Shown here piece after piece: positions 7,908-61,795 of a stretch of 64,000 bases of DNA. A model generated the notes under the pieces. The model saw only the letters and a list, made by a program, of their open reading frames with translations, was not told where the DNA came from and searched no databases. How positions within the stretch are numbered: the stretch's first letter is position 1; the number at the start of each line of letters is the position of its first letter. The translations under genes were made by a program, and so were the position numbers. The DNA is from Candidatus Krumholzibacteriota bacterium (GTDB lineage Bacteria > Krumholzibacteriota > Krumholzibacteriia > Krumholzibacteriales > Krumholzibacteriaceae): NCBI GenBank assembly GCA_016932415.1, contig JAFGCX010000018.1, positions 62,001-126,000 on the forward strand, in the 5' to 3' direction.

Positions 7908-7930
7908 TGACCTTTAGATGTCTATGAAAT
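7908..7930 (+). repeat. 23-bp upstream element, copy 1
   Basis: TGACCTTTAGATGTCTATGA and the next three bases match 12798-12820 at 21 of 23 positions. Partial similarity (A-TCCAA-AT) continues about 10 bp further. This copy lies about 130-150 bp before the LVIVD-repeat gene; the other lies at a similar distance before the next large low-GC surface-protein gene. Regulatory or mobile origin is unknown. Confidence 0.55.
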
Positions 7931-8058
7931 CATTTAAATTCCAAAATTTGTCTGTAGCGATGATTGATATTTATGTTATTATGTGCTCTCCGATCCATAA
8001 ATTTTGCAATACCAATATAAAGTTTTGAGGGATAATTCGACAGTGAGGAGAGTAGGCT

Positions 8059-12820: not shown

Positions 12821-12976
12821 TGTGGGAAGTCCAATATAACCTTTTTTCAACATCAGCTCGAAAATACTTTATAAAGGCTAATCATGCTTTTATCTGTTTA
12901 ACTTGTACAGAGTGATCAATTTATTTACTTGCCCCGGTTAATTCTGATAGAATTATCGATATTGTCTAAGCATACA

Positions 12977-45356: not shown

Positions 45357-47408
45357 TTGTCAGCTGACGAATGGAAAAGGAATCTTCGAGCGGCGGCTGT
45401 TGTTGCCGCCATCATCATTGCCGTTCCGTTGGCCGGTCCACTGGCCGTACAGACCGGTCTTCCCCCGGGCGAGAGGCCGCCCGCGGATGTCTTTTCCCGG
45501 GTCGCCGATGCCGGAACAGCGGCTGATCATGGAAACGCGCCATACCTGGTTGTATATGATTCGGCGATCAACCGTATGAAACCCTCAGGCGTGACTTACG
45601 TGGAAAGCTATACCATAAGAAAGGTCCTGACCCCGGCAGGCCAGAGAAGCCAGTCTGTTCTGCGATGGAACTACGATCCGCAGAGCAGTTACGTCGAAAT
45701 AAGGGATGTCAATATAATCCGGGATGGACAGAAGATCCCGGTCGATCTATCGAATGTACACGACCTTCCCGCCCCGCAGTACGCGATCTACTGGAAAGAC
45801 AGGATCAAGACGCTGCAGCTGCCGAGGCTGAATATAAATGACGGGATCGAGATAAGGCTCTTCAGAAAAGGATTCACCTATGCCCTGCTGGAAGGGCGGA
45901 AGCCGGACGCGGACGCGGTTCCCGGAGATGAGAAATATATTCCCCCGATGCCGGGAGAGTATTTCGATATCGTCCTTTTTTCTGACGATGCTCCTGTCGT
46001 GGAGAAAAGGTATACGCTCGTCCTTCCATCGGACAAACGTCTCCATTCGCAGATATATAACGGCCCGCTCTATTCGAGCACATCGTTTGCCGGCGATACG
46101 ACAGAGTATACATGGTGGGGGCTCGATCTTCCCGCCACAGCCAGGGAGCCCCGCCAGCCTGACAGGAGCGATTTCGCGGCGAAGGTGGTCATGGCGACCG
46201 CCGAAAGCTGGGAAGCGAAAAGCCGGTGGTTTTTCGACGTCAACCGGGGCCAGTTCGAGGTGACCGAAGATATCAGGATGAAAGTCGACGAGATCCTCCG
46301 CGGCGCCGGGGTGGCGAAAGGCAGCGAGGAAGAAAGAGCGAAAGTGCTGCTCCACTGGGTCGCCCAGAATATCCGATACAGCGGGCAGACCATGGGCGAG
46401 GGGGAAGGATTCACCCTTCATCCGGGTTCGATGATATTCGAGCAGCGCCATGGCGTCTGCAAGGATATCGCCGGGATGCTGGTGACGATGATGAGAGCGG
46501 CGGGGATGAACTCTTTCGCCGCGATGACCATGGCGGGCAGCCGGATAGATGATCTGCCGGCTGATCAGTTCAACCACTGCGTCTGCGCCCTGAAAAAGGA
46601 GGATGGATCTTTCGAGATGTACGATCCGACCTGGGTGCCGAACAATAATAACATATGGTCCCTTCTCGAAGCGGAGCAACACTACCTGGTAGGGACTCCG
46701 GAAGGGGAAGACCTGTCGAGGATAGATTACAGCCCGCCGGAAGAGTCACCCCTGGTGATAGCCAACGACGCGAAGCTGGCCGCTGACGGGACTCTCGAGG
46801 GAAAGATCAGGCTTTCCGGTTCCGGCGCCCTGGACAGCCGCCTGCGCGGCATTATCGCCGGGAGCCGGAAAGATGAGATCGGCGGGACGCTTGCCCGGCT
46901 GCTGTCCCCCGTCAGTAACAGGGTCGAGATCCTGGGTTTCGAGTATCACCCGACCGATGATTTCAGTTCTGATATGTGGCTGACGATAAGTTACCGGATC
47001 GCGCGTTTCGCTCTTCCGGTCGATGGAGCCCTGGAGTTCAGAAGTCCGATGATGCAGATCGTTCTCAACAACGTCCGGCTCTTCAGGCCTTCCCTCACCG
47101 AGTGGGGAGATTCGAGGCAGACGGATGTCTTCCTCTATTATACCCAGCTGATCGACGGGACAGAAAGTATAAGGCTTCCGAAAGGTCTTGTCGTAAGAGA
47201 TCTTCCCGAATCTGATGTCGTGGACGAGGAGTACGCAAGTTTCAAAGGGACGAGCAGGATGGAAAAAGGAAGGCTGGTAATAACCCAGCGGGCAGAGATC
47301 AAAAGAAGACAGATACCTCCCGGCGGATACGCCGGGTTCAAAAAAGCTGTTGATGAAGCGAGGGAGTGGAGCGAAGTCTCGTTCCGCGCCGGGAAGGGAG
47401 GCAAGTGA
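45357..47408 (+). CDS. DUF3857-transglutaminase protein with intact catalytic triad
   Basis: This 683-residue protein starts at TTG 45357, with AGGAGG 5 nt upstream. An N-terminal hydrophobic segment (AAVVAAIIIAVPLAGPLAV) exports or anchors it. Residues about 60-260 are a DUF3857 beta domain (YESYTIRKVLTPAGQ), and 290-440 a transglutaminase-like core. The catalytic triad is visible: Cys368 in RHGVCKDIAG, His407 in QFNHCVCAL, Asp423 in MYDPTW. A DUF3858-like beta domain (about 470-680) ends the protein. These proteins act in the envelope as proteases or cross-linking enzymes; the substrate is unknown. Its TGA stop overlaps the ATG of the next gene, a paralogue (TGATG). Confidence 0.88.
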   Translation: MSADEWKRNLRAAAVVAAIIIAVPLAGPLAVQTGLPPGERPPADVFSRVADAGTAADHGNAPYLVVYDSAINRMKPSGVTYVESYTIRKVLTPAGQRSQSVLRWNYDPQSSYVEIRDVNIIRDGQKIPVDLSNVHDLPAPQYAIYWKDRIKTLQLPRLNINDGIEIRLFRKGFTYALLEGRKPDADAVPGDEKYIPPMPGEYFDIVLFSDDAPVVEKRYTLVLPSDKRLHSQIYNGPLYSSTSFAGDTTEYTWWGLDLPATAREPRQPDRSDFAAKVVMATAESWEAKSRWFFDVNRGQFEVTEDIRMKVDEILRGAGVAKGSEEERAKVLLHWVAQNIRYSGQTMGEGEGFTLHPGSMIFEQRHGVCKDIAGMLVTMMRAAGMNSFAAMTMAGSRIDDLPADQFNHCVCALKKEDGSFEMYDPTWVPNNNNIWSLLEAEQHYLVGTPEGEDLSRIDYSPPEESPLVIANDAKLAADGTLEGKIRLSGSGALDSRLRGIIAGSRKDEIGGTLARLLSPVSNRVEILGFEYHPTDDFSSDMWLTISYRIARFALPVDGALEFRSPMMQIVLNNVRLFRPSLTEWGDSRQTDVFLYYTQLIDGTESIRLPKGLVVRDLPESDVVDEEYASFKGTSRMEKGRLVITQRAEIKRRQIPPGGYAGFKKAVDEAREWSEVSFRAGKGGK

Positions 47409-49342
47409 TGAAGAGATCAATGACTGTTTCAGGAATATTAATAATCGTTTCCGCTCTTTTGTCTTTCTCTTCGAGTCTCCGGGCTGAAAAGATGGGGATC
47501 TCCGGTAGGCACGATCTCGATCAACTCTGGTCGAGGGCGCGAGAGATATTCGATCCTGCCGGGTTTGACGCGATAGTCCTCTTGGAAAGCGAAGGCGTGT
47601 CGCTGATGGAAAAGGGCGATCTGAAAAGAAAGATCCACAGAGTTGTGTGGATAAGCACAGGGGTAGCCATACATGAACACGCCGATCTGAGAATACCATA
47701 CAATTCGAACGGTTCATCGATGAAAGTCCTTAAGCTGAGGACCTGGCGCGGGGGAAGATGGTGGCCTGACGAAAAAAAGATAAGCGATACGGCAGTGGTG
47801 GAGACCGTTCCGCACGCCCTCGCCCTGGCTGATGATTATTCGACGGTCCGCGAGACCATGCTTCTGCACGATGGGATAGAGCTTCCATGTATACTCGAGA
47901 CGGAATATGAGATAACGGGCGCGGGGGAAGCAAATGATGGATGCGACGGTCTTTTCATATTCGCCCGGCGAGATCCGGTCGTGATGTCGGCATTCTCCCT
48001 CGATCTACCCCCTGGCGCGGGAGTCAGGTTCGCCACGGGCAATGGAACAGGCGATCCGGAGATCGCAGCGCTCGAAGGAGGCGGAAAAAGGTACCGGTGG
48101 ATGATGGAGGATCCGGGAAGGCTCTCCGCCTCGCTGGATGAGGATCATACTTCGTACGCGCCATACCTTGCCTGGTCGACCTGGAAGGACTGGAAAGCTC
48201 TCGCTTCAAAAATCATGGATTCGTTCAACGGAGCCGCTGATCCCGGCGCGTCGCTGGCCGATACCGCCGCGGCAAGGGCGAGATACGAACCGGGGACACT
48301 CTCGAAGATGAGAAAGATCGCTTCGCTTGTCGATGAGTTCACCACGAATATCGCCTACGACGCGAAGCTGTGGAGTTTTTCTCCGAGACCGGCGGTGCGG
48401 ACCTACGAGACGGCGTACGGACACTCCCTAGATCGGGCCGTGCTTGCCGCTTCGCTGATGAGAAGCATCGGGATCGAGGCATGGCCGTTCTACAGGTCGG
48501 CAGGGACGGGCGATATCGATATGACGGTGCCTGGACTGTCGCGTTTCGGCGATATCATGCTGATAGCCGGCGAAGGGGAAGTCACGGCGGTCTATGATCC
48601 CTCAACGGGAAGGGTCACCGGCAGGACGGGTATTTTGACGGGCCGGACGGTATTCATGTGTGGAGAGGATGGCGATACTCCCTCGCGTTTCAAACCGGTC
48701 CACGCCGGGAAGACCGGGCTGTTCGAACTTACACTTACCATCGACGCCGGTATGGACAAAGAAGCGAAGGGAAAGGGATATCTCAACGCCTCTAATATAC
48801 TGAGCCCTTACGACGATATGGCGGGGCTCGGCGGCCAGGCGCCCTCTTATCTCGGCAGGCTTGCCGGAGCGGTATTGCCGGGCGCTGAGACAGAATCATA
48901 TGACATCGAACTCTTTTCCGAACACGCAGTAAAGATCGGGTTCGATTTCAGCGGCGGAGTTTCCGAGGCGGGTGACGGCGGCAGGGTGAGCTTGATCGCC
49001 GGTGAGCCGGAAGGGGGTATCTTCTCGTTCCTGGGAAGAGACGTACATCTGTACCAGGAGAAAAGAGAATCTCCCGTCTGCCTTCCCTCAGGAATGGTCC
49101 AGAAGATATCGCTCGTGATAGAGACAGTAGGGAGGGAGGTCATCTATATTCCCGAAGAGGTCTCGATGGAGAATGAGGCGGGGAGTTTCCTGCTGACGGT
49201 GAGGAATGAAGAGGGCAGGCTCATCGTCGACCGGACCCTTTCCATTGATATAAAGACAGTCCCGGCCAGCATGTGGCCCAGGCTTCGGACTCTCCTTCTC
49301 GAATGGACAGATCAGGCGAACAGGACGGTGATATTGAAATAG
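47408..49342 (+). CDS. DUF3857-transglutaminase paralogue with degenerate active site
   Basis: Start ATG 47408 overlaps the previous stop. The 644-residue protein has a signal peptide (MTVSGILIIVSALLSFSSSLRA). It has the same order of domains as its neighbour: DUF3857-like region (about 60-230), transglutaminase-like core (about 280-400) and a C-terminal beta domain. The triad is broken. Where the neighbour has HGVCKD, this has YGHSLD (Ser340 for Cys); where it has FNHC, this has FGDI; only the YDP aspartate is kept. It is therefore probably not an enzyme of this type, and may bind the same substrate or regulate the active paralogue. Translational coupling suggests they work together. Confidence 0.82.
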   Translation: MKRSMTVSGILIIVSALLSFSSSLRAEKMGISGRHDLDQLWSRAREIFDPAGFDAIVLLESEGVSLMEKGDLKRKIHRVVWISTGVAIHEHADLRIPYNSNGSSMKVLKLRTWRGGRWWPDEKKISDTAVVETVPHALALADDYSTVRETMLLHDGIELPCILETEYEITGAGEANDGCDGLFIFARRDPVVMSAFSLDLPPGAGVRFATGNGTGDPEIAALEGGGKRYRWMMEDPGRLSASLDEDHTSYAPYLAWSTWKDWKALASKIMDSFNGAADPGASLADTAAARARYEPGTLSKMRKIASLVDEFTTNIAYDAKLWSFSPRPAVRTYETAYGHSLDRAVLAASLMRSIGIEAWPFYRSAGTGDIDMTVPGLSRFGDIMLIAGEGEVTAVYDPSTGRVTGRTGILTGRTVFMCGEDGDTPSRFKPVHAGKTGLFELTLTIDAGMDKEAKGKGYLNASNILSPYDDMAGLGGQAPSYLGRLAGAVLPGAETESYDIELFSEHAVKIGFDFSGGVSEAGDGGRVSLIAGEPEGGIFSFLGRDVHLYQEKRESPVCLPSGMVQKISLVIETVGREVIYIPEEVSMENEAGSFLLTVRNEEGRLIVDRTLSIDIKTVPASMWPRLRTLLLEWTDQANRTVILK

Positions 49343-49405
49343 AGAAGCGAGGCGGGCGAAGGGACCGGATCCCATCCGGCGGCGAGAAGTAAAAATGGAA
49401 TGAAC

Positions 49406-49444
49406 GAAAGGCTGGAAGGGCAGGAAAAGCTCTTTCAGCCTTTC
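49406..49444. terminator. Hairpin between convergent genes
   Basis: GAAAGGCTG pairs with CAGCCTTTC (9 bp plus a G-T pair) around a 20-nt loop that itself has AAGAGC/GCTCTT-like pairing; TCTTTC follows. The right arm overlaps the stop codon of the minus-strand gene. Confidence 0.4.
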
Positions 49445-50127
49445 TCTTTCAGGATCATTCTCGCGTCGGCGATGACGCACCTTGAACCGGAACAGATGAC
49501 CGGATTGAGATCGACAGAATCGATATAAGATTCGAGTTCCATCACTATATCTGAGAATTCGATCATCAGGGTGGTGAGAGCGCCGATATCTACCGGGTCG
49601 GATCCCCTGAAACCCCTGATCAACTGCTGTCCCTTTATGCCGGCGATCATCGATGAGACATCTTCTTCATTCAACGGCGCCATCCTTACCGCGGTATCTT
49701 TGTATATCTCTACTCCCACGCCGCCGATCCCCAACAGGATTACCGGGCCGAACTGGCTGTCTACCTTAGCTCCTATTATCAGTTCTATCCCCCTGGCCAT
49801 CTCGGCTACGACGGCGCCTGTGAAACCGGGGAGCAGGCTGAGGCGCTTGAATGTTGCGCGCAGCTTCTTTTCGGAGTCTATTCCGACGACGACTCCGCCG
49901 ACATCCGACTTGTGGATTATCTCGGGAGAGACGACTTTGGCGACAACGGGATATCCGTGTTTTTCAGCGAAGGCGACCGCTTCTTCTTCATTGACCGCCA
50001 TTGTGGATTCGGTGGTATCGAGTCCGCCGACACGAAGGATCTCCATTGCGTCCGGCTCTGTGATCCATCCGGCCTTTTTCGAGCGTTCCAATATGGGTTT
50101 TATTTTCTGGATCAACATGTCCTGCAC
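49435..50127 (-). CDS. ADP-forming acyl-CoA synthetase, ATP-grasp (beta) subunit
   Basis: This 230-residue ATP-grasp protein has the family motifs: KHGYPVVAKVVSPEIIHKSDVGGVVVGI, MARGIELIIGAKVDSQFGPVILLGIGGVGVEIYKD and a C-terminal SVDLNPVI. It matches the beta subunit of NDP-forming acetyl-CoA synthetase, which transfers phosphate between the alpha-subunit histidine and ADP. The reaction makes ATP from acyl-CoA in many fermenting archaea and bacteria. It overlaps the alpha-subunit gene by 16 bp, which indicates coupling. An alternative ATG lies at 50118. Confidence 0.9.
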   Translation of the reverse strand: MQDMLIQKIKPILERSKKAGWITEPDAMEILRVGGLDTTESTMAVNEEEAVAFAEKHGYPVVAKVVSPEIIHKSDVGGVVVGIDSEKKLRATFKRLSLLPGFTGAVVAEMARGIELIIGAKVDSQFGPVILLGIGGVGVEIYKDTAVRMAPLNEEDVSSMIAGIKGQQLIRGFRGSDPVDIGALTTLMIEFSDIVMELESYIDSVDLNPVICSGSRCVIADARMILKEKG

Positions 50128-51479
50128 CTTTTCATCGCCTCGACCATGAGTACCGCTCCTTCGATCGAGTGCGCCACAGGGACCCTGTTAAGCTGGAACC
50201 CCTCGATGATCATCTTGTATTTTTCCACGTGAGGGACGTACGCGATGATCGGTTTGTTCTCTTCCTGGGAAAGCTGGCCGAGCCTGGCGCCAACATCGGA
50301 CGTGACCTCGGGCAGATAGGGAAGAAGAAGCATCAGGATGCAATCTATATCGTCGTTTTTGGACAGTTCCCTCGCTGCGACCACGAAATCGTCGTCGCGG
50401 GCGCTACCTGTCAGATCGAGAGGATTACCGAGTGATGCTATCTTCTGAATGCTTCCAGAGAGATTTTTCCTTATCTCTTCCTGGACATCCTCGGCCAAAG
50501 AGGGGATCTCAAGGCCGCCCTGGCTGCAACGATCGACAGCGACTGCTCCATGACCCCCGCTCGCCGTTACGATCCCGGCCCTTCCCCTGATCGAAACGGG
50601 ATAACTGCTCAACCCCTCGCAGAATGAGAGCATCTCGTATTCATCGAGAGCTTCGACGATGCCGAACTGTCTCATGACAGAGGAAAAGACGGTGTAATCG
50701 CCGGCGATCGAAGCTGTGTGGCTTGAGACGGCGCGGGTTCCCGCTTCGCTCTTCCCCGCTTTCATTATGATTACCGGTTTGGGGCAGCGGCTTGCCGCGT
50801 GAGCGAATTCCCTTCCCTTGCCGGGGCTGAATCCCTCGACATAGAAGGCTATGACATCGGTCCTGTCGTCGCGGGCGAAGAACTTCAGAAGGTCTATCTC
50901 GTCGATCACCGCCTTGTTGCCGATACTGACGGCCCTGGAGAGCCCGATCCCCTGCCCGGCGAATTTGACCATCTGGTCGACGAGGATCCCCCCGCTCTGG
51001 CTGACGATCGCTATATTCCCGCTTTCAGGTCTTACCATCCGTTCGCTCGGCAGGAAAAAAGAATCGACGAAGTCAGGGGAGTAGATGCCGAGGCAGTTCG
51101 GACCGATAATCGGAAAGTCGGCTTCAGAAGCGATCCGGCGCAGTTCTTCGGTGAGATCGGTCCGGCCTGTCTCGTCGAAACCTCCGGAGATGACCGCCGC
51201 TCCCCCGACCCATTTATTGACGCAATCCTCGAGAACGGGAGGTACATGGTCGGCCCTCACCGCTATGACAGCGAAATCAATCTTTTCGGGGATGTCGCTG
51301 ATCTTCCTGTATATTTTCTCCTTGTAATATTCGCCACCCTTCGGATTGACGGCGAAGACCCTGACGGGATAACGGAAATAATTCTTGTTATATATGACGT
51401 TGGCCGGATGCCGGTCGTTAGTGAGCGATACTCCGACAACGGCCATCGTCTTCGGTTCAAACAGGGTCCGAAAATCCAA
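50112..51479 (-). CDS. ADP-forming acyl-CoA synthetase, CoA-binding (alpha) subunit
   Basis: This 455-residue protein starts at TTG 51479, with AAGGAGCGGAAGGA upstream. Domain 1 is a CoA-binding Rossmann fold (FEPKTMAVVGVSLTNDRHPANVIYNK), and domains 2 and 3 are succinyl-CoA-synthetase-like. The phospho-histidine is in RAVSSHTASIAGDY. Further family motifs are IIGPNCLGIYSP and AIVSQSGGILVDQ. With the beta subunit it converts acyl-CoA, ADP and phosphate to the acid, CoA and ATP. No acetyltransferase domain is fused, which argues against a protein acetylase. The substrate acyl group cannot be told. Confidence 0.92.
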   Translation of the reverse strand: MDFRTLFEPKTMAVVGVSLTNDRHPANVIYNKNYFRYPVRVFAVNPKGGEYYKEKIYRKISDIPEKIDFAVIAVRADHVPPVLEDCVNKWVGGAAVISGGFDETGRTDLTEELRRIASEADFPIIGPNCLGIYSPDFVDSFFLPSERMVRPESGNIAIVSQSGGILVDQMVKFAGQGIGLSRAVSIGNKAVIDEIDLLKFFARDDRTDVIAFYVEGFSPGKGREFAHAASRCPKPVIIMKAGKSEAGTRAVSSHTASIAGDYTVFSSVMRQFGIVEALDEYEMLSFCEGLSSYPVSIRGRAGIVTASGGHGAVAVDRCSQGGLEIPSLAEDVQEEIRKNLSGSIQKIASLGNPLDLTGSARDDDFVVAARELSKNDDIDCILMLLLPYLPEVTSDVGARLGQLSQEENKPIIAYVPHVEKYKMIIEGFQLNRVPVAHSIEGAVLMVEAMKRCRTC

Positions 51480-51517
51480 TTCCTTCCGCTCCTTATTAAA
51501 AGGTCTGTTGTTGAGGT

Positions 51518-51546
51518 ATCCTGCACCAGATAGATCGTGTTGTCAA
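51518..51546 (-). promoter_or_regulatory. Promoter of the acyl-CoA synthetase operon
   Basis: On the minus strand, a perfect TTGACA (51541-51546), 17-bp spacer, CAGGAT (51518-51523), about 35 bp before the TTG start. Confidence 0.5.
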
Positions 51547-51738
51547 GGAGGAGAATTTTCCGCGGGAAGCAGCGGAGGCGCCAGTGAACCGTGCTTGAAG
51601 CATGAGATCGATATCCGTGATCCTTCGCTAATGGCCCCTGCAGGGGCGAGTCCCCGAACGAGAAGGTAAATTATTATTGAGATAGTATCTTCGCCGGGCA
51701 GACGGTTCATTTTTATATCTTTAAACCCAATTCGACAC

Positions 51739-51767
51739 TTGATTCGATTTCAGAATTGGGATAGAGT
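51739..51767 (+). promoter_or_regulatory. Possible promoter of the PEGA-ATPase-kinase operon
   Basis: TTGATT, 17-bp spacer, TAGAGT; 57 bp before the ATG at 51824. Weak matches at both boxes. Confidence 0.33.
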
Positions 51768-51823
51768 CCTCGGAGTCGAGCGGACAATTAATTTATAATA
51801 ATCATGGCAGTCGGGGGAGTAGC

Positions 51824-52564
51824 ATGTTTAGTTTTTTTTCCAGGTCGCGGGATCTGACGAGAGCTTTGTCGATATTTCTTACCATGACATTTCTTTTTTC
51901 AATCGCTCCGGTCTGCGCCCAGGAACCGGAGGACAGGATATTCGCGATCTGGGAAGAGATAGGACTTCTGAGGGCAAGGGGCGATTATGGGAAGGCTGAA
52001 GAGATCCTCGAACAGGTCCTGATAGATTATGTCGACGACGAGTTTGTGCTGAGAAGAGCGTGGAACCTTCTTGTGCACACAAGGTTCAAGATGAATGATG
52101 ATGAAAGTGCCATGGAGACGGCGAGGATGGCGCTTGAGAGATTCCCGGATCTGACAGTGAATACGGCGATCCTGCCGGCCTCGATGAATGATACTTATGA
52201 CGAGCTTAGAAGTTCGATGTACGGTTCTCTCGAAGTGACCGGTCCGGAAGGAGCGGTGTTGTTCCTCGACGCCGATTCGCTCGGAACAGCTCCGGTTAAG
52301 TTCGAATATATCCGCACGGGAATGTACCTGCTGACAGCTTCAAAAAAAGGGTACCACTCCAGGGCGGATACGGTCAGGATCGATCCAAGCGAGACCCTGA
52401 CCTTCGGCATGACGCTCGACAGGAGAAAAGATACCAGGTGGTGGCTCTACAGGATAGTACCTGCCGCCGCGGCCGTCGCGCTGATAATATATCTGACGAG
52501 GCCTGATAATTCGAGCACGCCGGTCGAGCAGCCGCTTCCCTGGCCCCCTGATCCACCACAATAA
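51824..52564 (+). CDS. Exported TPR/PEGA-domain membrane protein
   Basis: This 246-residue protein has a signal peptide (SIFLTMTFLFSIAPVCA, cleaved before QEP). Residues about 30-110 are helical and TPR-like (GDYGKAEEILEQVL, DDESAMETARMALERFP). A PEGA domain follows (about 130-195, GSLEVTGPEGAVLFLDADSLGTAPVKFEYIRTG), then one membrane helix (IVPAAAAVALIIYL) and a short proline-rich tail. PEGA domains are found in envelope proteins linked to signalling and cell-wall contact. It is the first gene of a closely spaced plus-strand series; the next gene starts 25 bp on and also carries PEGA domains. Confidence 0.8.
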   Translation: MFSFFSRSRDLTRALSIFLTMTFLFSIAPVCAQEPEDRIFAIWEEIGLLRARGDYGKAEEILEQVLIDYVDDEFVLRRAWNLLVHTRFKMNDDESAMETARMALERFPDLTVNTAILPASMNDTYDELRSSMYGSLEVTGPEGAVLFLDADSLGTAPVKFEYIRTGMYLLTASKKGYHSRADTVRIDPSETLTFGMTLDRRKDTRWWLYRIVPAAAAVALIIYLTRPDNSSTPVEQPLPWPPDPPQ

Positions 52565-52589
52565 TACAGGCGGGAGATGAATAAAGAAG

Positions 52590-54776
52590 ATGGTTTCTGA
52601 CAGAGGATTCAGAACGATACCAAACCCGTATATTGTCGGCAATCCCATCGAAGACAAAAAAATGTTCTTCGGTCGGCTCGATGATTTCGAGTTCATAAGG
52701 AAAAAAGTCACCGCCAACCGGCAGGGCGGTATAATCGTACTCTGCGGATCGCGAAGGAGCGGCAAGACCTCTATCCTCTTCCAGATAAACCAGGGCAGGC
52801 TGGGTGATGATTTTCTTCCCGTATTGATAGATATGCAATCGGTCACGGTCCAGAGCGACAGGGAATTCCTCGAAATAATCGCGAGGGAGATAGACGCCGT
52901 CCTGGAAGGTTCCGGTTCGCTGGTAGACGAGGGATTTCAGTCGCGGCTTGAAGCGAATCCTCTTCTAGCCTTCAATGAGTTCACCGGGAGACTCAACGAG
53001 AAGATAGCCGGCAGGAACCTGATCCTGATGTTCGACGAGTATGAGCTTTTCGAGACGCATATCGAGCGCCAGCGATTCAGCAAGGATGTCCTCAATCTGA
53101 TGGCGTACTGGATGGAAAACAACGAAGGAGTCTATTTTCTCTTTACCGGCTCGGACAAGCTTGAAAAAAGGAATCCTGAATACTGGGAATCGTTTCTCGG
53201 TAAAGCCCTTCATCGAAGGATCAGTTTTCTCAGCCATGCCGACGCTCTGAGGCTGATCAGCGAACCGGTGAAAGATATCGTCAAATATGACAAGGGAGTC
53301 ACCGGGAAGATCTTCGAACTTACGGCGGGCCAGCCATTTTACACCCAGGTCATATGCCAGTCCCTGGTCGATCACCTCAACGAATCAGGCAAGAATACGG
53401 TCTCTGAAGAGGATATTGACGATGTGGTCGAGGAGATCATTGAGAATCCGCTACCCCAGATGATTTTTTCATGGAGTTCGATGACGCAGATCGAAAGGAT
53501 CGTTCTTTCGATCATAGCCGAGCTGAGCAAGGAAGATTCAGAGGTTGTCACTTCCGACGACATGCTCTCTTTTATCGAATCCGAGAAGATCGGATATAAT
53601 GTCGATCCAAACAAGCTCAGGGAAGCGGCGGAAAGACTTTTTCACCAGGATCATCTTTTCAAGGACCAGGATACCGAAGGTTATACTTTCAGGATGGACC
53701 TCTGGCGGCGCTGGACGATCCGGATGCATTCGATATGGCAGGTCCTTGATGAGATAACCGCCGATGGAGCTCAGCTCGAAGAAGGGATATTACCTGTCCG
53801 TAAAAGACTCAAAGCGGTAATAGTGACGGCTTTTTTTGCCGCGGCGGTCATTATCGCCGCTTCCGTGCTCTACAGTATCAACGTACGCGAACGCGGCAGG
53901 GTCGCCGGGCTCGCGGTCAGGCAGGATTCCACGCGGCTGTCCGTCGATACAGAACCTGCCGGAGCCCAGATATTCGTCGACAGGACTTTCGTCGGGCTCT
54001 CTCCCGTGCGCGAGACGGTTCCGGCGAAGAGGTCGGCGCTGAGAGTGACACTTGCAGGGTACAGGGAGTTTGAGGATTCAGTCGATCTTGAAAAGGATCT
54101 TCCTTATGAAAGAATGATCGATCTGGAAGAAGAGACAGGATCGATCATGATCAGTTCTTTTCCGGAAGGAGCAGAGGTCGTTCTTGACGGGAACAGGGTG
54201 GAGACTCGTACGCCGATAAGATTTGATTCTCTTTCGGTCAACGTCCTTCATAAATGCCGGGTGATGCTGCCCGGATATTATGTCCACGAATTCAACGGGA
54301 TCGAACTGACCGCCGATTCCGTCACTACACTTTTTCACAGGTTCAGCAGGATGCTTCATCCGCTTACGGTCATCTCCGAACCGGCGGGGGCGAAAATCCT
54401 GATAGACGGAGTCGAGCGCGGACATGCCCCCGTCAGTATTAGCCGTATTGAAGAAGGAGAGCATCTGCTTTCCGCTGTCCTTGAAGGTTACTATGACAAG
54501 AGCAGTCAGATAACAGTGCCGGTGGATGAAAACCAGGTAAGGATAGATCTGGTCCTTCTTCCGCCGGGAGACCTCGTGCTGGAGATACTTCCTTACGCCG
54601 AGCTCTGGATCGACGGGCAGCTGGTCGATAGCGACGCGGTCAATTACCGGGTCTCATTAAGGCCTGGCAGGCACGAGATCGAATTGCGGCATCCCGTCTT
54701 CGGAAATCTGAAGGAAACGGTTATCCTGGTCTCTGGCGAGACGCTGACGAGAACATTCAACCTGGAGCGGAAGTGA
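52590..54776 (+). CDS. Transmembrane AAA/STAND-type ATPase with four extracytoplasmic PEGA repeats
   Basis: This 728-residue protein starts with NPYIVGNPIEDKKMFFGRLDD, a typical lead into ORC/STAND-like ATPases. It has Walker A GSRRSGKTSIL (about 50-60) and Walker B LILMFDEYELFE (about 145-156), and a helical and winged-helix-like region to about 390. One membrane helix (VIVTAFFAAAVIIAASVLYSI, about 412-432) follows. The rest, outside the membrane, is four PEGA units (for example SVDTEPAGAQIFVDRTFVGLSP, split here by family: SVDTEPAGAQIFVD, SSFPEGAEVVLDG, SEPAGAKILIDG, LPYAELWIDG). It should pass an envelope signal to an ATPase inside. Its TGA overlaps the next ATG (TGATG), so it is coupled to the kinase-ATPase gene. 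Confidence 0.85.
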   Translation: MVSDRGFRTIPNPYIVGNPIEDKKMFFGRLDDFEFIRKKVTANRQGGIIVLCGSRRSGKTSILFQINQGRLGDDFLPVLIDMQSVTVQSDREFLEIIAREIDAVLEGSGSLVDEGFQSRLEANPLLAFNEFTGRLNEKIAGRNLILMFDEYELFETHIERQRFSKDVLNLMAYWMENNEGVYFLFTGSDKLEKRNPEYWESFLGKALHRRISFLSHADALRLISEPVKDIVKYDKGVTGKIFELTAGQPFYTQVICQSLVDHLNESGKNTVSEEDIDDVVEEIIENPLPQMIFSWSSMTQIERIVLSIIAELSKEDSEVVTSDDMLSFIESEKIGYNVDPNKLREAAERLFHQDHLFKDQDTEGYTFRMDLWRRWTIRMHSIWQVLDEITADGAQLEEGILPVRKRLKAVIVTAFFAAAVIIAASVLYSINVRERGRVAGLAVRQDSTRLSVDTEPAGAQIFVDRTFVGLSPVRETVPAKRSALRVTLAGYREFEDSVDLEKDLPYERMIDLEEETGSIMISSFPEGAEVVLDGNRVETRTPIRFDSLSVNVLHKCRVMLPGYYVHEFNGIELTADSVTTLFHRFSRMLHPLTVISEPAGAKILIDGVERGHAPVSISRIEEGEHLLSAVLEGYYDKSSQITVPVDENQVRIDLVLLPPGDLVLEILPYAELWIDGQLVDSDAVNYRVSLRPGRHEIELRHPVFGNLKETVILVSGETLTRTFNLERK

Positions 54777-56749
54777 TGATAGCGGGAGAAGTGATCTCCG
54801 GAAAATACCGTATCGTGAAAAAGATAGGTCAGGGCGGTTTCGCATCGGTCTATCTCGCATTCGATCTGAAGCTGGAAAGGGAAGTCGCGATAAAAGTCCT
54901 CTCCAGCGTCGAGGACAATAATCTTTTCCGCGAAAGGTTTTACCGCGAGTCGCAGGCCCTGGCCAAACTCAACCACCCGAATATTATCACCGTTTTCGAT
55001 TGCGGTGAACACAATGGGCATGAATTTCTCGTGATGGAGCTCGTCAACGGTCCTTCCCTTGAGACTCTCATATCCAAGATGACGCTTAAAATGCCGCAGG
55101 TATGCTCGATCGCCCTGCAGATCTGCGAAGCGATGCGATACGCCCATGACCAGGGATTCCTGCACAGGGACCTGACCCTGAAGAATATCATGCTCGATGA
55201 AGAGGAAACGGAAAATGCCAGGGTAAAGATACTCGATTTCGGACTGGTCAAACTCCTTTACTCCGATATAAAGACGACCGGAAACGCGATGATGGGGACT
55301 CCCGCTTTCATGGCGCCTGAACAGGTCGTCGGCAAGCCGGTAGACAACAGGATAGACATATGGGCTTTCGGGGTGGGGCTCTACAGGATAATCACGGGAG
55401 AGTTCCCGTTCAAGGGAGAGCATCCCGCCGCGCTTATGTATTCGATTGTCAATGACGCTGAACTGGAGATCCCTGCCACAGTTCCCCGGGGCTTGAAAAA
55501 ATTGATCAGCGACTGCCTCGCCAAAGACCCTGAAAAACGGCCTCTTGATTTCGGGGAGATCGCTTCCGCGCTCGAGGAGATCGATGCCGAACTGAGAGAC
55601 GGAGAGAGCAGACCCGGCACGGAGCTGGTCACGAATGTCGGATCGCTCGCCGAGCGAAACAGCAAGAGGAACCCGTATCTCAACCGTGTCATGATAAAAA
55701 GCCCGAATGATTTTTTCGGCCGCGAAAAAGAGATACGGAAAATATATTCACGCCTCGACGCGCCGCAACCCCAGTCGATATCGGTGGTCGGTGACCGCAG
55801 GATCGGCAAATCATCCCTGCTCAACCATATCCATAACAGGAAGAACCGCAAAAAATTCATGCAGAATTACGATTCTTCAATATTTGTCTATCTCGACTTT
55901 CAGAATACCGTCGACAATGACGTCTCCAAATTCATCGACCTGTTGTTCAACGTGTTCAGTTTTGAGACAGGCGATCAGACGAGATATACGGCGAGGCCAA
56001 AGACTCTCGATCAACTCAAGGACGTCATAGAGGAACTGCATGAAGAGGGCAAGCGGATCATAATAATGATGGATGAATTCGAATTGATCACGCGTAACGA
56101 GAATTTCGAGCAGGATTTTTTTTCATTTCTGCGCTCTCTCGCCAACACGTACAGGGTGGCGTATGTGACCTCATCGCGTGAAGAACTGCAGTTGATGTGT
56201 CACGACAAGGATATTTCGGATTCCCCTTTCTTCAATATCTTTTCGAATCTGCCCCTCAGGCCGTTCAGCCGTGAAGATGCCGACAAGCTTATCTCGATCC
56301 CGTCAAGACGCGAAGGCGTCCCACTCGAGGAATATTCGGAAAGGCTGCTCGACATGGCCGGACTCTTTCCATTTTATCTCCAGATAGCATGTTCCTCTCT
56401 CTTTGAATTCATAGTGGATAATCCTTCCGCCGATCCGGACTGGAAGGAAGTCCTCAGGGTATTCACTGAGGAGGCTCAACCGCATTACAACTTCATATGG
56501 GAGAGGTTCGATGATCCGGAAAGGGGAAATCTCGCCAGGATCGTCCAGGGGAAAATGATCGATAAAAAATTCAATTACGTGACTGAGAATCTTCTCAGGC
56601 GGGGTTATCTTGTCGAGGATGGCGGCGGGCTGAGATTATGCTCGAGTACCTTTGCCGATTTTGCGGCTGGCCGTTCAGGAGGGCAGTCGGGACAAGGTTT
56701 AAGATTCTCATCTATTCTCAGCCGGTTAAGGAAAAAGAATCCCGGTTGA
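54776..56749 (+). CDS. Ser/Thr protein kinase fused to a STAND-like ATPase
   Basis: Start ATG 54776 overlaps the previous stop (GTG 54773 is the alternative). The 657-residue protein has a Hanks kinase domain (about 8-270): GQGGFASVYLA, Lys40 in VAIK, catalytic loop HRDLTLKN (His130-Asn137), DFG with Asp154, and GTPAFMAPEQ. The usual Lys of HRDLKPxN is Thr here, while the catalytic Asp132 and Asn137 are kept. After a linker, NPYLNRVMIKSPNDFFGRE leads into an ATPase (about 300-640) with Walker A GDRRIGKSSLLNHI and Walker B IIIMMDEFELI. There is no membrane segment. The ATPase resembles that of the coupled upstream protein, so the two may form a mixed oligomer. Confidence 0.88.
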   Translation: MIAGEVISGKYRIVKKIGQGGFASVYLAFDLKLEREVAIKVLSSVEDNNLFRERFYRESQALAKLNHPNIITVFDCGEHNGHEFLVMELVNGPSLETLISKMTLKMPQVCSIALQICEAMRYAHDQGFLHRDLTLKNIMLDEEETENARVKILDFGLVKLLYSDIKTTGNAMMGTPAFMAPEQVVGKPVDNRIDIWAFGVGLYRIITGEFPFKGEHPAALMYSIVNDAELEIPATVPRGLKKLISDCLAKDPEKRPLDFGEIASALEEIDAELRDGESRPGTELVTNVGSLAERNSKRNPYLNRVMIKSPNDFFGREKEIRKIYSRLDAPQPQSISVVGDRRIGKSSLLNHIHNRKNRKKFMQNYDSSIFVYLDFQNTVDNDVSKFIDLLFNVFSFETGDQTRYTARPKTLDQLKDVIEELHEEGKRIIIMMDEFELITRNENFEQDFFSFLRSLANTYRVAYVTSSREELQLMCHDKDISDSPFFNIFSNLPLRPFSREDADKLISIPSRREGVPLEEYSERLLDMAGLFPFYLQIACSSLFEFIVDNPSADPDWKEVLRVFTEEAQPHYNFIWERFDDPERGNLARIVQGKMIDKKFNYVTENLLRRGYLVEDGGGLRLCSSTFADFAAGRSGGQSGQGLRFSSILSRLRKKNPG

Positions 56750-56919
56750 CCATCTGCCGCGCCGGCTTGAAAGTCCCGGTTTCCATCCTGGGAGAGAAGT
56801 ATGAGGGCCTTGGCCTGTCTTTACGCGATATCAGGAACCTTTCCGGCAAATTCCGCTGTTTTCACTTGCCATCTCAGGACGGGTAATGACAGGATGACGA
56901 GGAAAAGGGTGCTTCTGAA

Positions 56920-58419
56920 ATGAGAATCTGTTCGATCTCGCGATCGATGATATTTCTTCCGCTGATCGTCTCTCTCCTGGCGGGGTGCGGAAAGGGAAGG
57001 ATGACCGGCAGAGAACCGGCCGATCGCGAAGACTGTCTTGTCATCGAGGCCGTGAAAAAGCGCGCCGATTCTATAAGAGTGGCTCTCTTTGATAATATCG
57101 ATCCGGCAGACATCCCTTTTCCCCGCAACGGATCGGAACGCTTCCTCTTCGGTAATCTCTACGAATCCCTGATAAAGATCGATTGCCGGGGTCAGGTATC
57201 TCCATCCCTCGCCAGCAGGTGGGAAAGTACGGACAGGGGGAGATGCTGGCGATTCGAACTCGATAGAGAAGCTGTTTTCTGGAATGGAACTGCTGTCACC
57301 GCGAATGATGTGATCCGGTGCTGGGACCGCGATGAACTTAAATCGATGTTCGCCCTGGCAGGAATAGATTCCTTTTCAGCCGAAGGGGCGACGAAGATCA
57401 ATATATATTTGATGGAACGATCGACGGAGGTGCCGCGCGCTCTCGCTTCAGAGGCATTCTCCGTATACAGGCGTTCTCTTTTTTCGCGCTGGCCCCTCGG
57501 AACCGGAGACTTCAGAGTCGTCGAGAGAGCGCCAAAAACCCGCGAGTCTGATCAGAATCTTGCTATCCAGCCTGCTTTTTCCCGCCATGGACCTTTTATA
57601 GATATTTTAACGATACCTGTCGAAGAGGCGAGAGACATCCTTGAAAGTTCGATAGACCTTCTTGTCACAGGCGATCAGGAAACAATCGATTTCGCCGTGA
57701 AAAGAGGAAGTTTTATCACGGAAAGACTCCCGTGGAGTTCGACCTATATGCTCCTGTCGACATCGCGGGTGAGGGATATCAGGCTCGGCAGGAGAACAGA
57801 ACCGATCTCGCCCGGGCTGCGGGAAAACCTCGCGCATTTCGCCATAAGGTGCGAAGCACGGGCAAGCCGTCCGGGGGGATGGTGGGATCGTATGGGAGAT
57901 CGCCGTTCTCTGTCATCAGGAGTCAAATGGCCCCCGGTCTTTCTTGCCGGAGCCGATATTGATTCAGAGAGGCGAAGGATCGTATATGATATAAACGATG
58001 AGACTTCCAGGGATATAGCGGAGCGGCTCGTCGCCCTGGCAGGCGGCGATCCGGATATTTCAAATGATTCCCGCGATCTTTTATCTGTGATTCCCGATAT
58101 CGAAGGCAGGTACGCATCTGGTGTCCCGCTCAGAGCGGAAGGGCTGGCGCGTGAAGATCTCGACCGCAGTGTTCTCTCCGGCGATGATTTCGCTTACATT
58201 ATAAAAGTGGCGCGCAACAGCTTCGATCCATCTTTTCAGGCGGGGCTTTTCATGGAAAAGATCAACTGGGTTTCCGGCCTTGAAGGCAATTTTTCAAAAG
58301 CCCTGCTCACCCTTGCAGACACGAGGGAGACAGTCATAGCGAGAAAGGATGCCGCATCGATCTCCGTCGACTGGTCCGGCAGGATAATAATAATGGTGAA
58401 CAGGGGTGAACGAAGATGA
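56920..58419 (+). CDS. Orphan solute-binding lipoprotein, SBP_bac_5 (oligopeptide/nickel) family
   Basis: This 499-residue protein has a lipobox (VSLLAGCGKG, Cys at about 25). The body matches the family-5 solute-binding proteins of ABC importers: FLFGNLYESLIKID, VSPSLASRWES, FELDREAVFWNGTAVTANDV, and GTGDFRVVE. No permease or ATPase gene is nearby. Instead it sits 170 bp after the kinase-ATPase gene and 42 bp before a sensor kinase, which suggests a role in ligand sensing rather than import. The middle and C-terminal parts are diverged from transporters, and the ligand is unknown. Confidence 0.8.
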   Translation: MRICSISRSMIFLPLIVSLLAGCGKGRMTGREPADREDCLVIEAVKKRADSIRVALFDNIDPADIPFPRNGSERFLFGNLYESLIKIDCRGQVSPSLASRWESTDRGRCWRFELDREAVFWNGTAVTANDVIRCWDRDELKSMFALAGIDSFSAEGATKINIYLMERSTEVPRALASEAFSVYRRSLFSRWPLGTGDFRVVERAPKTRESDQNLAIQPAFSRHGPFIDILTIPVEEARDILESSIDLLVTGDQETIDFAVKRGSFITERLPWSSTYMLLSTSRVRDIRLGRRTEPISPGLRENLAHFAIRCEARASRPGGWWDRMGDRRSLSSGVKWPPVFLAGADIDSERRRIVYDINDETSRDIAERLVALAGGDPDISNDSRDLLSVIPDIEGRYASGVPLRAEGLAREDLDRSVLSGDDFAYIIKVARNSFDPSFQAGLFMEKINWVSGLEGNFSKALLTLADTRETVIARKDAASISVDWSGRIIIMVNRGERR

Positions 58420-58461
58420 CGGCCGGGATATTTCACGATAGTAATTAAAAGGTGAGTGAAG

Positions 58462-60198
58462 ATGAACTTCCGCCCCAGGTTGATAATAACATCCCTCCTG
58501 GCAGTCCTTCTTCCGATGATCGTCCTGGCTTTTTTCATCCGGGGCGAGATGACCAGGCGCATATCAGCGCAGTACCGGCGGCGCGTCGAGTCGATGACGG
58601 CGGTAATAGAGGAAGACCTCCGGAAGGAAAGCGACGATATAGGAAAAACGGTCGACGCACTTATGGAAAGTCTCGCCGACGACAACAGCTTCAGGAATGC
58701 CGCGGCGAGCCAGGACGCGCAATCGAGGCGTTATCTGATAGATCTCGCGGGAAATGTTATCGATCTGCCCGGCCTGTCGATGCTTCAGATACAGGACCGA
58801 TCAGGCAGGATAATAAGTTCGGGTCACTTCAGAAATGAATTCGACAGGATAGACAGGGATCTGCCCCTCCTCCTTTCCTCTGTAAAGGAAGGTCCGGTAC
58901 TTGCCGAGGCGCGAGCTCCCGACTCTCCTTTTCTCGTTCTCGCCAGGGTCGATTCGTTCGTGATATCCGGCAGATATTTCACCGTCTCGGCCGGCAGGCG
59001 AGTCGACCAGGAATTTCTCGGAAGGCTTTCAAGAGAGGATATGCTCGATATCGTTCTTCTCTGGCCTGGCGGGGCGATCGGTTCGGGAGATAAGGAAGAG
59101 GAAAAAGAAGGCACCAGCAATGCCGGCCCTGGCCGGGAGGAAGAAGGGCTCGAGGGGGCGACGGGGAGTCTCGATCTGCCGTTTATAGGCATTGATCGCG
59201 CCGGAGTCGGGGAAGCGTCGTTCAAGGTGACTCACCGGGTAGATGAACTCGTAGCCCTGAGAAGAAGCATGGACAGGTGGTTCACAATCGCCCTTCTCAG
59301 CGCGGCAGTCTTCTCGATCATCCTCGTCAGCTGGCTCTCTTCGAGAATAAGCAGGCCCCTGACGGAACTGGCCGAAAAGACGGCGCAGATAGACCTCGAA
59401 AAGCTCGATGTCGATTTTGATAGTCCCAGGCGAGATGAGATAGGAGCCCTGTCGAGGATGCTCATGGCTATGACAGAGAGGCTCCGTTCGAGCGCGGCGA
59501 GGATCAGGGATGCCGAGCACCGCGCCACGTTGGGCGAACTGGCCAGGCAGGTCAATCACGATATAAAAAACGGCCTCACCCCGATTAGGAATATCTTCCG
59601 GCACCTTTCGGAGATCGAGAAGAGCGATCCGGCAGGCATGCCGGGGATATTCAATGAGCGGCGCGCCGTCCTCGAATCGAGTATCGAGTATCTCGATGAT
59701 CTGGCGTCGAACTACGCCAGGCTCTCTCCATCGGCCAGTATCGGGATATGCGACGTCAATTCTGCGGTCATAAAAGTCGCCAGAGAGCTGCGAGCTTCAA
59801 GGCGGGCGGAAGTCCAGGTCGACCTCGCTGATGGCGCTTTCATCATGGGAGATGCTGTCGCTGTGAGACGCGTCGTGGAAAATCTCGCCGGGAACGCCGC
59901 GGACAGCCTTGAAGATAAGAGGGGAACGGTCTCGATAACAACCTCGATCATCAGCGGAAAGGGCGGCGATGAGAAGGTCCGCCTGAGTGTCAGCGACACG
60001 GGAAGCGGGATGACCGAGAAAGAGATGGCGGCTATTTTCAATGATTTTTATACTACAAAGGAGAGGGGAGTCGGGCTGGGGCTTTCGATAGTCAGACGAC
60101 TTGTCATCGATCTTGGCGGGTCGATAAATGTTGAAAGCGCCAGGGGAAAGGGGAGCCGGTTTGTCGTCGATATTCCACGGGCCGCACGGTCCTGCTGA
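58462..60198 (+). CDS. NtrY-like membrane sensor histidine kinase
   Basis: Start ATG 58462 is preferred over GTG 58456 because AAGGTGA lies about 6 nt before it. The 578-residue protein has a membrane helix (LIITSLLAVLLPMIVLAFFI), an extracytoplasmic sensor domain of about 230 residues, a second helix (FTIALLSAAVFSIILVSWL), a HAMP-like linker (SRPLTELAEKTAQID) and a kinase core. The core has LARQVNHDIKNGLTPIR as phospho-acceptor region and NLAGNAADSLEDK, DTGSGMTEKE and GVGLGLSIVRRL in the ATPase domain. The HDIKNxLTPI form is typical of NtrY/NtrB-type partners of sigma-54 regulators, and the NtrC-type regulator follows 12 bp downstream. Confidence 0.9.
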   Translation: MNFRPRLIITSLLAVLLPMIVLAFFIRGEMTRRISAQYRRRVESMTAVIEEDLRKESDDIGKTVDALMESLADDNSFRNAAASQDAQSRRYLIDLAGNVIDLPGLSMLQIQDRSGRIISSGHFRNEFDRIDRDLPLLLSSVKEGPVLAEARAPDSPFLVLARVDSFVISGRYFTVSAGRRVDQEFLGRLSREDMLDIVLLWPGGAIGSGDKEEEKEGTSNAGPGREEEGLEGATGSLDLPFIGIDRAGVGEASFKVTHRVDELVALRRSMDRWFTIALLSAAVFSIILVSWLSSRISRPLTELAEKTAQIDLEKLDVDFDSPRRDEIGALSRMLMAMTERLRSSAARIRDAEHRATLGELARQVNHDIKNGLTPIRNIFRHLSEIEKSDPAGMPGIFNERRAVLESSIEYLDDLASNYARLSPSASIGICDVNSAVIKVARELRASRRAEVQVDLADGAFIMGDAVAVRRVVENLAGNAADSLEDKRGTVSITTSIISGKGGDEKVRLSVSDTGSGMTEKEMAAIFNDFYTTKERGVGLGLSIVRRLVIDLGGSINVESARGKGSRFVVDIPRAARSC

Positions 60199-60210
60199 AA
60201 GTGAGGCGCC

Positions 60211-61560
60211 ATGTCACTTATCCTGGTAGTGGATGATCTTCTTAACCTCGCTCAGCAGTACGCCTATGACCTGAAAAGGGTCGGCGGATTCGACGTGATT
60301 ATCGCCACCGGCGGGGCGCAGGCTCTTGAGATGATCTCCGGCGAGGCGGTCGACTGCGTGATACTCGACCTCGAGATGCCTGGAGTGGACGGGTTCGAAG
60401 TGCTCCGGACGATGAAAGAACGACGGATAGGTATTCCTGTGATAGTCTACACCGGGACCGGCGATTTTGACAGGTGCGTAAAAGCGGTCAATCTCGGGGC
60501 GTACGGGTTTATCGACAAGTCGGAGTCGATGGAAAGAGTCGCGCTCGAGGTGAAGAATGCTCTCGAGAGGAACCGGCTCGAGGTCGAAGTAAAGTCGCTC
60601 AGGCAGGAAACCGGAAGAGGCACTCCGCTGACAGGCTCGAGCAGGGCGATGGAGGACCTCAGGGAGCAGATAGGGCGGATAGCCCCGTTCCCCGGCACCG
60701 TACTCGTCGTCGGGGAAAGCGGGACGGGAAAGGAACTCGTCGCGAGAGAACTGCACAGGCTCGGACCGGGAGAAAAGACTCCCTTTGTCGCCGTCAACAG
60801 CGCCGCTTTTCCGGAAAATCTCATTGAAAGCGAACTTTTCGGACATGAGCGTGGGGCTTTCACCGGGGCAAGCAGGTTGCACAGGGGAGCGTTCGAGCGG
60901 GCGACGGGAGGCACCCTATTCCTCGACGAGATAGGAGAACTTCCTCTTCCCGCCCAGGCGAAGCTTCTTCGGGTCCTGGAGGAAAAGAAGATAACGAGGA
61001 TCGGAGGCGAAAAGAGTATCGGCGTCGACGCGAGAGTCGTTACCGCGACGAACCGGGATCTTGAATCGCTCCAGGCGGAGGGGAGATTCAGGCAGGATCT
61101 TTACTATCGGCTCAATGTCCATATCCTGCGGATACCGCCGCTGCGGGAGCGCAAGTCGGATATTGCCGAACTGACAGACCATTTCCTGAGGAGTATCTGC
61201 TCTGGCTACGGTATCAGGGAGAAGAAGCTTGACGATGGGGTCCTCGATCTTCTTTCCCGGTACGACTGGAAACGGAACAATGTACGCGAATTGAGGAATA
61301 TTATCGAGAGGATGATAATAGCCTCCGATGCCGGCCTGATACAGATCGGCCACGTTCCGGCGGAAGTGGCGGGGAGAGGCCCGGCCGGGAAGGGGCCCCG
61401 GACTTTTCAGGAGATGAAATCGGAATCAGAGCGCCGGATAATCATTTCGGCCCTTGAGCGAAACGGCTGGCAGATCACGACTACCGCCGCCGAACTCGGC
61501 CTGGCAGATCACTCGAGCCTTCTCAAGATCATGAGACGGCATAATATCAAAAGAAAATAA
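60211..61560 (+). CDS. NtrC-family sigma-54-dependent response regulator
   Basis: This 449-residue protein has a receiver domain (1-120, phospho-acceptor Asp53 in VILDLEMPGVDG), a sigma-54 AAA+ domain (about 140-370) with [15 protein letters not shown], the sigma-54-contact loop GAFTGA, and [11 protein letters not shown] Fis-type HTH ends it (TTAAELGLADHSSLLKIMRR, about 420-445). Phosphorylation by the upstream sensor kinase should drive oligomerisation and activation of sigma-54 promoters. Directly after the stop codon are two matching palindromes and a -24/-12 promoter, which are the natural candidates for its binding sites and target. Confidence 0.95.
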   Translation: MSLILVVDDLLNLAQQYAYDLKRVGGFDVIIATGGAQALEMISGEAVDCVILDLEMPGVDGFEVLRTMKERRIGIPVIVYTGTGDFDRCVKAVNLGAYGFIDKSESMERVALEVKNALERNRLEVEVKSLRQETGRGTPLTGSSRAMEDLREQIGRIAPFPGTVLVVGESGTGKELVARELHRLGPGEKTPFVAVNSAAFPENLIESELFGHERGAFTGASRLHRGAFERATGGTLFLDEIGELPLPAQAKLLRVLEEKKITRIGGEKSIGVDARVVTATNRDLESLQAEGRFRQDLYYRLNVHILRIPPLRERKSDIAELTDHFLRSICSGYGIREKKLDDGVLDLLSRYDWKRNNVRELRNIIERMIIASDAGLIQIGHVPAEVAGRGPAGKGPRTFQEMKSESERRIIISALERNGWQITTTAAELGLADHSSLLKIMRRHNIKRK

Positions 61561-61562
61561 TC

Positions 61563-61614
61563 ATGTGTCCATGGGGACACATTTCTGTGATCAAATAAGT
61601 GTCCAAATGGACAC
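61563..61614 (+). promoter_or_regulatory. Tandem palindromic activator sites (putative NtrC-type UAS)
   Basis: Site 1 (61563-61582) is ATGTGTCC-ATGG-GGACACAT with perfect 8-bp arms. Site 2 (61599-61614) is GTGTCC-AAAT-GGACAC with perfect 6-bp arms. The shared form is GTGTCC-N4-GGACAC. Centres are 34 bp apart, about three helical turns, and site 2 ends about 97 bp before the -24 element. Neither is followed by a T run, so they are not terminators. Confidence 0.75.
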
Positions 61615-61710
61615 AAAAGGAGACGTCTTTTTCCCCGCCGCGATTTGCTTCGCTTTTCATCCATTTGTAAAATAACAAGATACGACTGGCATCAATTGCT
61701 TTCCCTTCGC

Positions 61711-61725
61711 TGGCCTTCCGCTTGC
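61711..61725 (+). promoter_or_regulatory. Sigma-54 (-24/-12) promoter
   Basis: TGGC (61711-61714), 7 bp, TTGC (61722-61725), which is the invariant core and spacing of sigma-54 promoters. The start of transcription would be near 61737, about 60 nt before the lipoprotein gene. Confidence 0.75.
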
Positions 61726-61795
61726 CCTGCTAAAGGTACAGGAACGGTCAAGGAGTCAACGCCCGGGAAGGGCAAAACCTGAAAGGAGGGTCACA

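Follow-up and report, generated by a model that had tools for sequence, protein, structure and literature searches.

Two adjacent genes, here called B and C, probably encode the halves of a modular transmembrane receptor: a pair of STAND/ORC-like ATPases would link a sensor on the outer side to a kinase or cyclase on the inner side. Together with a third gene, A, they lie in the window, the whole 64,000-nucleotide stretch of DNA that was analysed (genome G000, contig C18, positions 62001-126000); the contigs of relatives of G000 are titled Candidatus Krumholzibacteriota. All three open reading frames are on the + strand, A at 51824-52564 (246 aa), B at 52590-54776 (728 aa) and C at 54773-56749 (658 aa). 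The 25-bp gap between A and B and the stop/start overlap between B and C, both reported in the initial annotation, were borne out: the TGA stop of B (54774-54776) lies within GTGATG, where C starts at either GTG (54773) or ATG (54776), overlapping the stop of B. Likewise, the open reading frames and Pfam matches agreed with the architecture described there, namely a TPR-PEGA protein, an ATPase with a transmembrane helix and four PEGA domains, and a kinase-ATPase fusion.

Gene B, delineated from its open reading frame, Pfam, alignment and AlphaFold2, encodes the ATPase, the transmembrane helix and the PEGA domains in that order. The AlphaFold2 model (mean pLDDT 88.6) comprises an ATPase with a winged helix, a helix at residues 408-431 and beta-rich PEGA domains. 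Assigned from motifs, AlphaFold2 and Foldseek, the ORC/Cdc6-like ATPase with its winged helix (aa 10-392; 52617-53765) carries a Walker A motif, GSRRSGKTS, and a Walker B motif, LMFDEYE. The best matches of the model among solved structures were ORC/Cdc6 proteins and 2qen (Foldseek, TM-score 0.66 by target length), and 2fna was found weakly by the B profile. By AlphaFold2 and Foldseek, B is a STAND/ORC-like ATPase, with an ORC/Cdc6-type domain, a C-terminal winged helix and Walker A and B motifs. No Pfam or NCBIfam ATPase model matched B above cut-off, AAA and ATPase_2 appearing in Pfam below threshold only, and the four PEGA units were detected with E 9.7e-38 (53931-54131, 54138-54344, 54363-54557 and 54645-54773). 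Hydropathy revealed one hydrophobic helix, at residues 409-427, between the ATPase and the PEGA domains. The transmembrane helix (aa 408-431; 53811-53882) was assigned from hydropathy, AlphaFold2 and the positive-inside bias of the family, and the PEGA domains (53931-54773; Pfam, AlphaFold2) are predicted to lie outside the inner membrane, topology being called from hydropathy and charge.

Gene C (open reading frame, Pfam) encodes a soluble protein made up of a Hanks-type kinase and an nSTAND2 ATPase, with no predicted membrane helix throughout the core family. The kinase domain (aa 12-257; 54806-55543; Pfam Pkinase, E 6.5e-59) shows VAIK, HRDLTLKN, DFG and APE motifs in the motif alignment, and its closest solved folds are PknA and PknB. 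The ATPase (aa 297-640; 55661-56692), with Walker A GDRRIGKSS and Walker B IMMDEFE, belongs to nSTAND2 by its match to PF20702 (E 4.2e-44; 151 bits against a cut-off of 24) and also matches 2fna by sequence; these two matches place it among the STAND/ORC-like ATPases. Matches in PHROGs and NCBIfam were to generic kinase or weak ATPase models only. In the C kinases of the Krumholzibacteriota/Latescibacterota clade (window, L098 and L100-L103) the catalytic loop reads HRDL[TS]L[KR]N; the lysine of HRDxKPxN is absent and a K or R immediately precedes the N, as in tyrosine kinases. Outside this clade, HRD[ILV]K is found in nearly all C kinases.

Both ATPases had been described as beginning with NPY...FFGR and as sharing an R-[R/S]-x-GK[ST]S Walker A, and the alignments confirmed these features. 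We rejected the Walker A pattern as a family signature, since GxRRxGK[ST]S occurs widely among ATPase_2-type proteins, and tested homology by full profiles instead. Alignment of B with C by hhalign (probability 96.7%, E 3.7e-10) started at NPY and covered about 300 residues, so that the two ATPases are homologous and not members of unrelated families; B and C also matched each other in a whole-genome protein search of G000 (E 1.9e-9 and 5e-10). Walker A and B motifs are intact in both window proteins and in almost every full-length relative, and conserved arginines are present in both alignments. Though homologous to C, B gave no match to PF20702 even at E 0.05, and is hence not nSTAND2 by profile.

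A gene-neighbourhood check addressed whether the genes are rarely neighbours in relatives: B and C adjoin in all seven Krumholzibacteriota-group loci that show both, and the gene order recurs in related genera. Full-length B (>690 bits) was present in 7 of 58 related genomes, the window genome included, and the next gene was in each case C or, at a contig end, the first 124 residues of C. A precedes B in all seven except G036; in G006 and G047, where contigs end, it accompanies an incomplete B. The congeneric species G001, G009 and G008/G014 lack B and C in this 58-genome search, so the set comes and goes as a unit. In G042, a C remnant (L064:7593-9035), whose open reading frame starts inside the kinase domain and keeps only the final portion of it, with neither A nor B beside it, is a decayed copy.

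Gene A (open reading frame; Pfam TPR and one PEGA) encodes an exported protein with an N-terminal signal sequence, TPR, one PEGA domain (aa 139-200; 52238-52423; PF08308, E 3.8e-6), a C-terminal membrane helix and a proline tail (52499-52561), in which PLPxPPxPP is invariant across eight aligned A proteins. It is kept in seven relatives by alignment, but is restricted to the close clade and absent beside B-C in G036/L063. The three-gene unit originally proposed therefore holds for the B-C pair, which is constant, and not for A, which is not essential. As an exported protein, A is likely an extracytoplasmic partner that supplies or relays the signal in the Krumholzibacteriota/Latescibacterota clade. 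In Spirochaetales, an exported protein of about 305 residues is encoded between B and C (L113:10956-11873; equivalents in L107, L110 and L121); its N-terminal half is TPR-like and its C-terminal half beta-rich-looking, with no Pfam match in L113, and it is perhaps the counterpart of A. A possible beta-barrel was seen in the module neighbourhood in Calditrichota.

Directly 3' of C, six loci (G007, G017, G033, G002, G015 and L103) encode a giant exported protein of up to 1681 aa. It has about 13 FG-GAP repeats and gives weak ASH-like matches, and complete copies have a FlgD/T9SS-like tail. Strong homologues (>500 bits, a threshold set after the scores were seen) occur in 8 of the 58 genomes, all among the 11 with module genes (P 8.6e-8, or 7e-7 when a weaker homologue in G044 is counted). 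The giant is likely a fourth, extracytoplasmic partner in the Krumholzibacteriota/Latescibacterota clade. We do not regard it as a core member, since none was seen beside B-C outside the close clade and it is unlinked in the window genome, where its two full-length homologues (1657 and 1699 aa, 47-49% identical) map to other contigs, C4 (L147:3517-8490) and C7 (L148:5024-10123). The window also encodes a secreted protein of 1157 aa (12929-16402). Over its final ~550 residues it matches the giants' C-terminal region, and Pfam finds no FG-GAP repeats in it.

Upstream of A, about 345 bp separate the module from a divergent acyl-CoA synthetase-like gene (named from sequence alone), and a SBP_bac_5 gene on the same strand follows C at 56920. 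We considered whether the SBP_bac_5, histidine kinase and sigma54-regulator genes (56920-61560) belong to the module and decided against it, as they are not found 3' of C in the close relatives examined. Promoter and terminator scans gave results at about chance level. The window begins (3-1877) with part of a Reg_prop propeller protein, which also has Y_Y_Y and an AraC-type HTH.

The B-C pair also occurs in Latescibacterota, Acidobacteriota, Spirochaetales, Calditrichota and Desulfobacterales. The B profile, run against 84,980 species, picked up 48 loci, from Krumholzibacteriota, Latescibacterota, Eisenbacteria, Acidobacteriota/Blastocatellia, Spirochaetales, Calditrichota, Desulfobacterales and Myxococcales; more distant loci came from Beggiatoa-type bacteria, Chloroflexi (Aggregatilineales) and cyanobacteria. 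Most of the genomes are draft metagenome assemblies. Counting the window and L058, 40 loci carry a strong B; 30 of them also encode C, on the same strand, and a contig end cuts four of the other ten. Whole-genome searches of 28 of the scanned genomes found one strong B in each, with C near B in 21, elsewhere in five (one of these a fragment), weakly in G105 only, and not at all in G097. Among 247 evenly drawn Spirochaetota genomes only the seed genome was recovered, so the family is rare there, and a scan of viral contigs returned one weak fragment and no sign of phage carriage.

In order to assess co-occurrence, we searched an even draw of 396 Acidobacteriota genomes, taking scores >400 bits as strong. 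Strong B was found in 24 and strong C in 23, with both, one copy each, in 22 (hypergeometric P 9e-33). When the genomes previously found through B were left out, 16 had B, 16 had C and 15 had both (P 6e-25), and without the 13 linked-pair genomes the numbers were 11, 10 and 9 (P 1e-15), all of these P values being inflated by shared ancestry. In three of these nine, G446, G473 and G515, B and C share a contig at a distance of ~0.9-1.4 Mb. Co-occurrence in nine genomes in which the genes are unlinked indicates more than operon hitch-hiking. Furthermore, distances among B proteins parallel those among C proteins (28 pairs; Mantel r 0.78, 0 of 5000 permutations; 0.75 without the Krumholzibacteriota clade), a correlation that also reflects shared ancestry. 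The one-to-one pattern of B and C without linkage is the strongest evidence of a partnership.

Across the family, the domains at either end of the pair are exchanged. The outer part of B, named here from Pfam matches, is PEGA in Krumholzibacteriota, Latescibacterota, Eisenbacteria and Spirochaetales, a Reg_prop propeller with CarboxypepD_reg in L106, L109, L117, L118 and L119 and without it in L108 and L116, and Peripla_BP_6 in L124, L126, L129 and L134. In L128 and L131-L133 the outer part is a polytopic module of 5-10 membrane helices, and it is RHS-like above cut-off in L123, more weakly in L122 and by architecture alone in L120; none of these three RHS-like loci has an adjacent C. The sensor may stand on either side of the ATPase, with the membrane helix between the two. 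In 39 of the 40 strong B proteins, 7-59 residues separate this helix from the ATPase, and the mean K+R counts around it are 4.4 towards the ATPase and 1.9 towards the sensor. On the part of C, the kinase precedes the ATPase in the Krumholzibacteriota clade and follows it in Acidobacteriota, and other loci have a class III cyclase (L113), a kinase plus a cyclase (L114) or two kinases (L136). An extra stand-alone C-type ATPase is present in Spirochaetales and at one Calditrichota locus. The suggestion that the outer PEGA domains bind the wall or a polymer thus does not extend to the family, in which PEGA is one of several sensors.

Distant members (cyanobacteria, Chloroflexi, G030) have a B-like ATPase that lacks the adjacent single helix, or that is itself fused to TIR, EAD, TPR or WD40, so not every homologue is a receptor. 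G030 has three tandem pairs of B-like and C-like ATPases (L067:5842-15479 and L066:4127-6650), two of them with no predicted membrane helices. Two pairs consist of a kinase-ATPase followed by an ATPase-TPR or an ATPase-TPR-WD40, and the third of two bare ATPases adjoining a SBP_bac_5 gene; they are possibly cytosolic versions of the B-C pair. In L106, from an Acidobacteria MAG, B and C are separated (6663-8551) by genes for an EcoRV-type restriction endonuclease and a D12-class DNA methyltransferase.

In the receptor that we propose, B would be the sensor half, with PEGA outside the inner membrane, one helix and an ORC/STAND-like ATPase just inside, and C the output half, a soluble nSTAND2 ATPase joined to a Hanks-type kinase or, elsewhere, to a class III nucleotide cyclase or to both. 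A signal from outside would alter the nucleotide state or the oligomerisation of B, the ATPases of B and C would then assemble on the inner face, and the output domains of C would be brought together and so switched on. Hanks-type kinases and class III cyclases work as, or are activated by, dimers, and nucleotide-controlled assembly would therefore be the simplest step to serve all of the observed outputs. We infer the contact between B and C, the control of assembly from outside, the direction of signalling, the ligand and the kinase substrates.

Alternatively, the paired STAND ATPases could be a phage-defence device that recognises an invader and unleashes the kinase as its toxic effector. 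PMC8195603 treats nSTAND2 and paired STAND NTPases as conflict systems, the distribution of the module is patchy down to its absence from congeners, the C kinase resembles the PD-T4-6/Mad6 models, and restriction-modification genes separate B from C in L106. However, the PADLOC matches listed for C cover the kinase domain and are generic, B had one weak match (E 0.025), and no system-specific model was hit through the ATPase proteins and none convincingly through the PEGA part. Extracytoplasmic sensors, a usual single copy per genome, the lack of Pfam-recognisable defence genes among the genes flanking the module in the window, and outputs that are not nucleases but cyclases, and kinases whose catalytic motifs are intact, all speak against a defence role, which we consider unlikely.

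Marginally less probable still is a scaffold or secretion complex, in which A, B and the FG-GAP giant would form a surface structure, the ATPases powering or gating its assembly and the kinase regulating it. The T9SS-like tail of the giant beside C, the exported TPR-PEGA protein A, the 305-aa Spirochaetales protein and the possible Calditrichota beta-barrel fit such a structure, yet these partners are clade-specific whereas the sensor and output domains swap freely, and propeller and periplasmic-binding sensors with cyclase outputs point to signalling. That B and C are merely co-transcribed, as two unrelated and independent regulators, is highly improbable given their one-to-one presence in the nine unlinked Acidobacteriota genomes and their parallel divergence.

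The modular receptor has its nearest described relative in a mobile two-gene nSTAND2 operon, in which both proteins carry STAND modules predicted to form a toroidal hetero-multimer with a conserved arginine finger in each, and one partner, with eroded NTP motifs, most commonly carries GT4 or HEPN (Kaur, Iyer, Burroughs and Aravind, 2021; PMC8195603, Fig. 6C). By the profile match of C, the two are kin. As described in that paper's main text, the operon shares with B-C the two adjacent STAND NTPase genes and a variable output fused to one of them. In contrast, B and C both retain Walker A and B, the outputs are a kinase, a class III cyclase or both in place of GT4 or HEPN, and B is a putative transmembrane receptor with a variable outer sensor; the main text neither mentions PEGA nor describes a receptor form. 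The iSTAND MoxR-vWA ternary systems, in the account given in PMC7159879, combine an inactive STAND, PEGA after membrane segments, and MoxR and vWA partners; they resemble B-C in that membrane helices and wall-proximal PEGA domains accompany a STAND-related module, but Pfam found no MoxR or vWA in the nine + strand genes at 45357-62899.

PASTA-type receptor kinases (PknB/Stk1) likewise couple a Hanks-type kinase to outer, wall-binding-like repeats, but do so in a single membrane-spanning chain, whereas the C kinase is soluble, the PEGA repeats are on B, and the two would be coupled through the two ATPases only. Two-component and hybrid systems with Reg_prop sensors share swappable sensors and outputs on separate proteins, and Reg_prop itself (L106/L109/L117), but B-C has no histidine kinase or receiver and its core is a STAND/ORC-like ATPase pair. 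The ATPase_2-type archaeal ATPases 2qen and 2fna share the ATPase fold (2qen with B, 2fna with both by sequence) and lack a fused sensor or kinase; we know of no partner for them. The original statement that no system with this arrangement had been described stands for the receptor form, as a search of open-licence full texts found no paper on a PEGA/STAND/kinase receptor, but needs amending in that the nSTAND2 operon is kin. We are evenly divided on whether B-C constitutes a distinct class of transmembrane receptor, with an obligate pair of homologous STAND/ORC-like ATPases, nucleotide-controlled hetero-oligomerisation, exchangeable sensors and kinase or cyclase outputs, and a logic like that of two-component systems.

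STAND ATPases are known as switches inside the cell that act in immunity, in cell death and in transcription. If the proposed receptor is correct, a STAND pair acting in transmembrane signalling, with freely mixing sensor and output halves, would be a new bacterial wiring scheme. It would show how sensorless outputs, both soluble Hanks kinases and class III cyclases, can receive signals, and would offer a tractable two-protein system for STAND hetero-assembly with a defined outer input.
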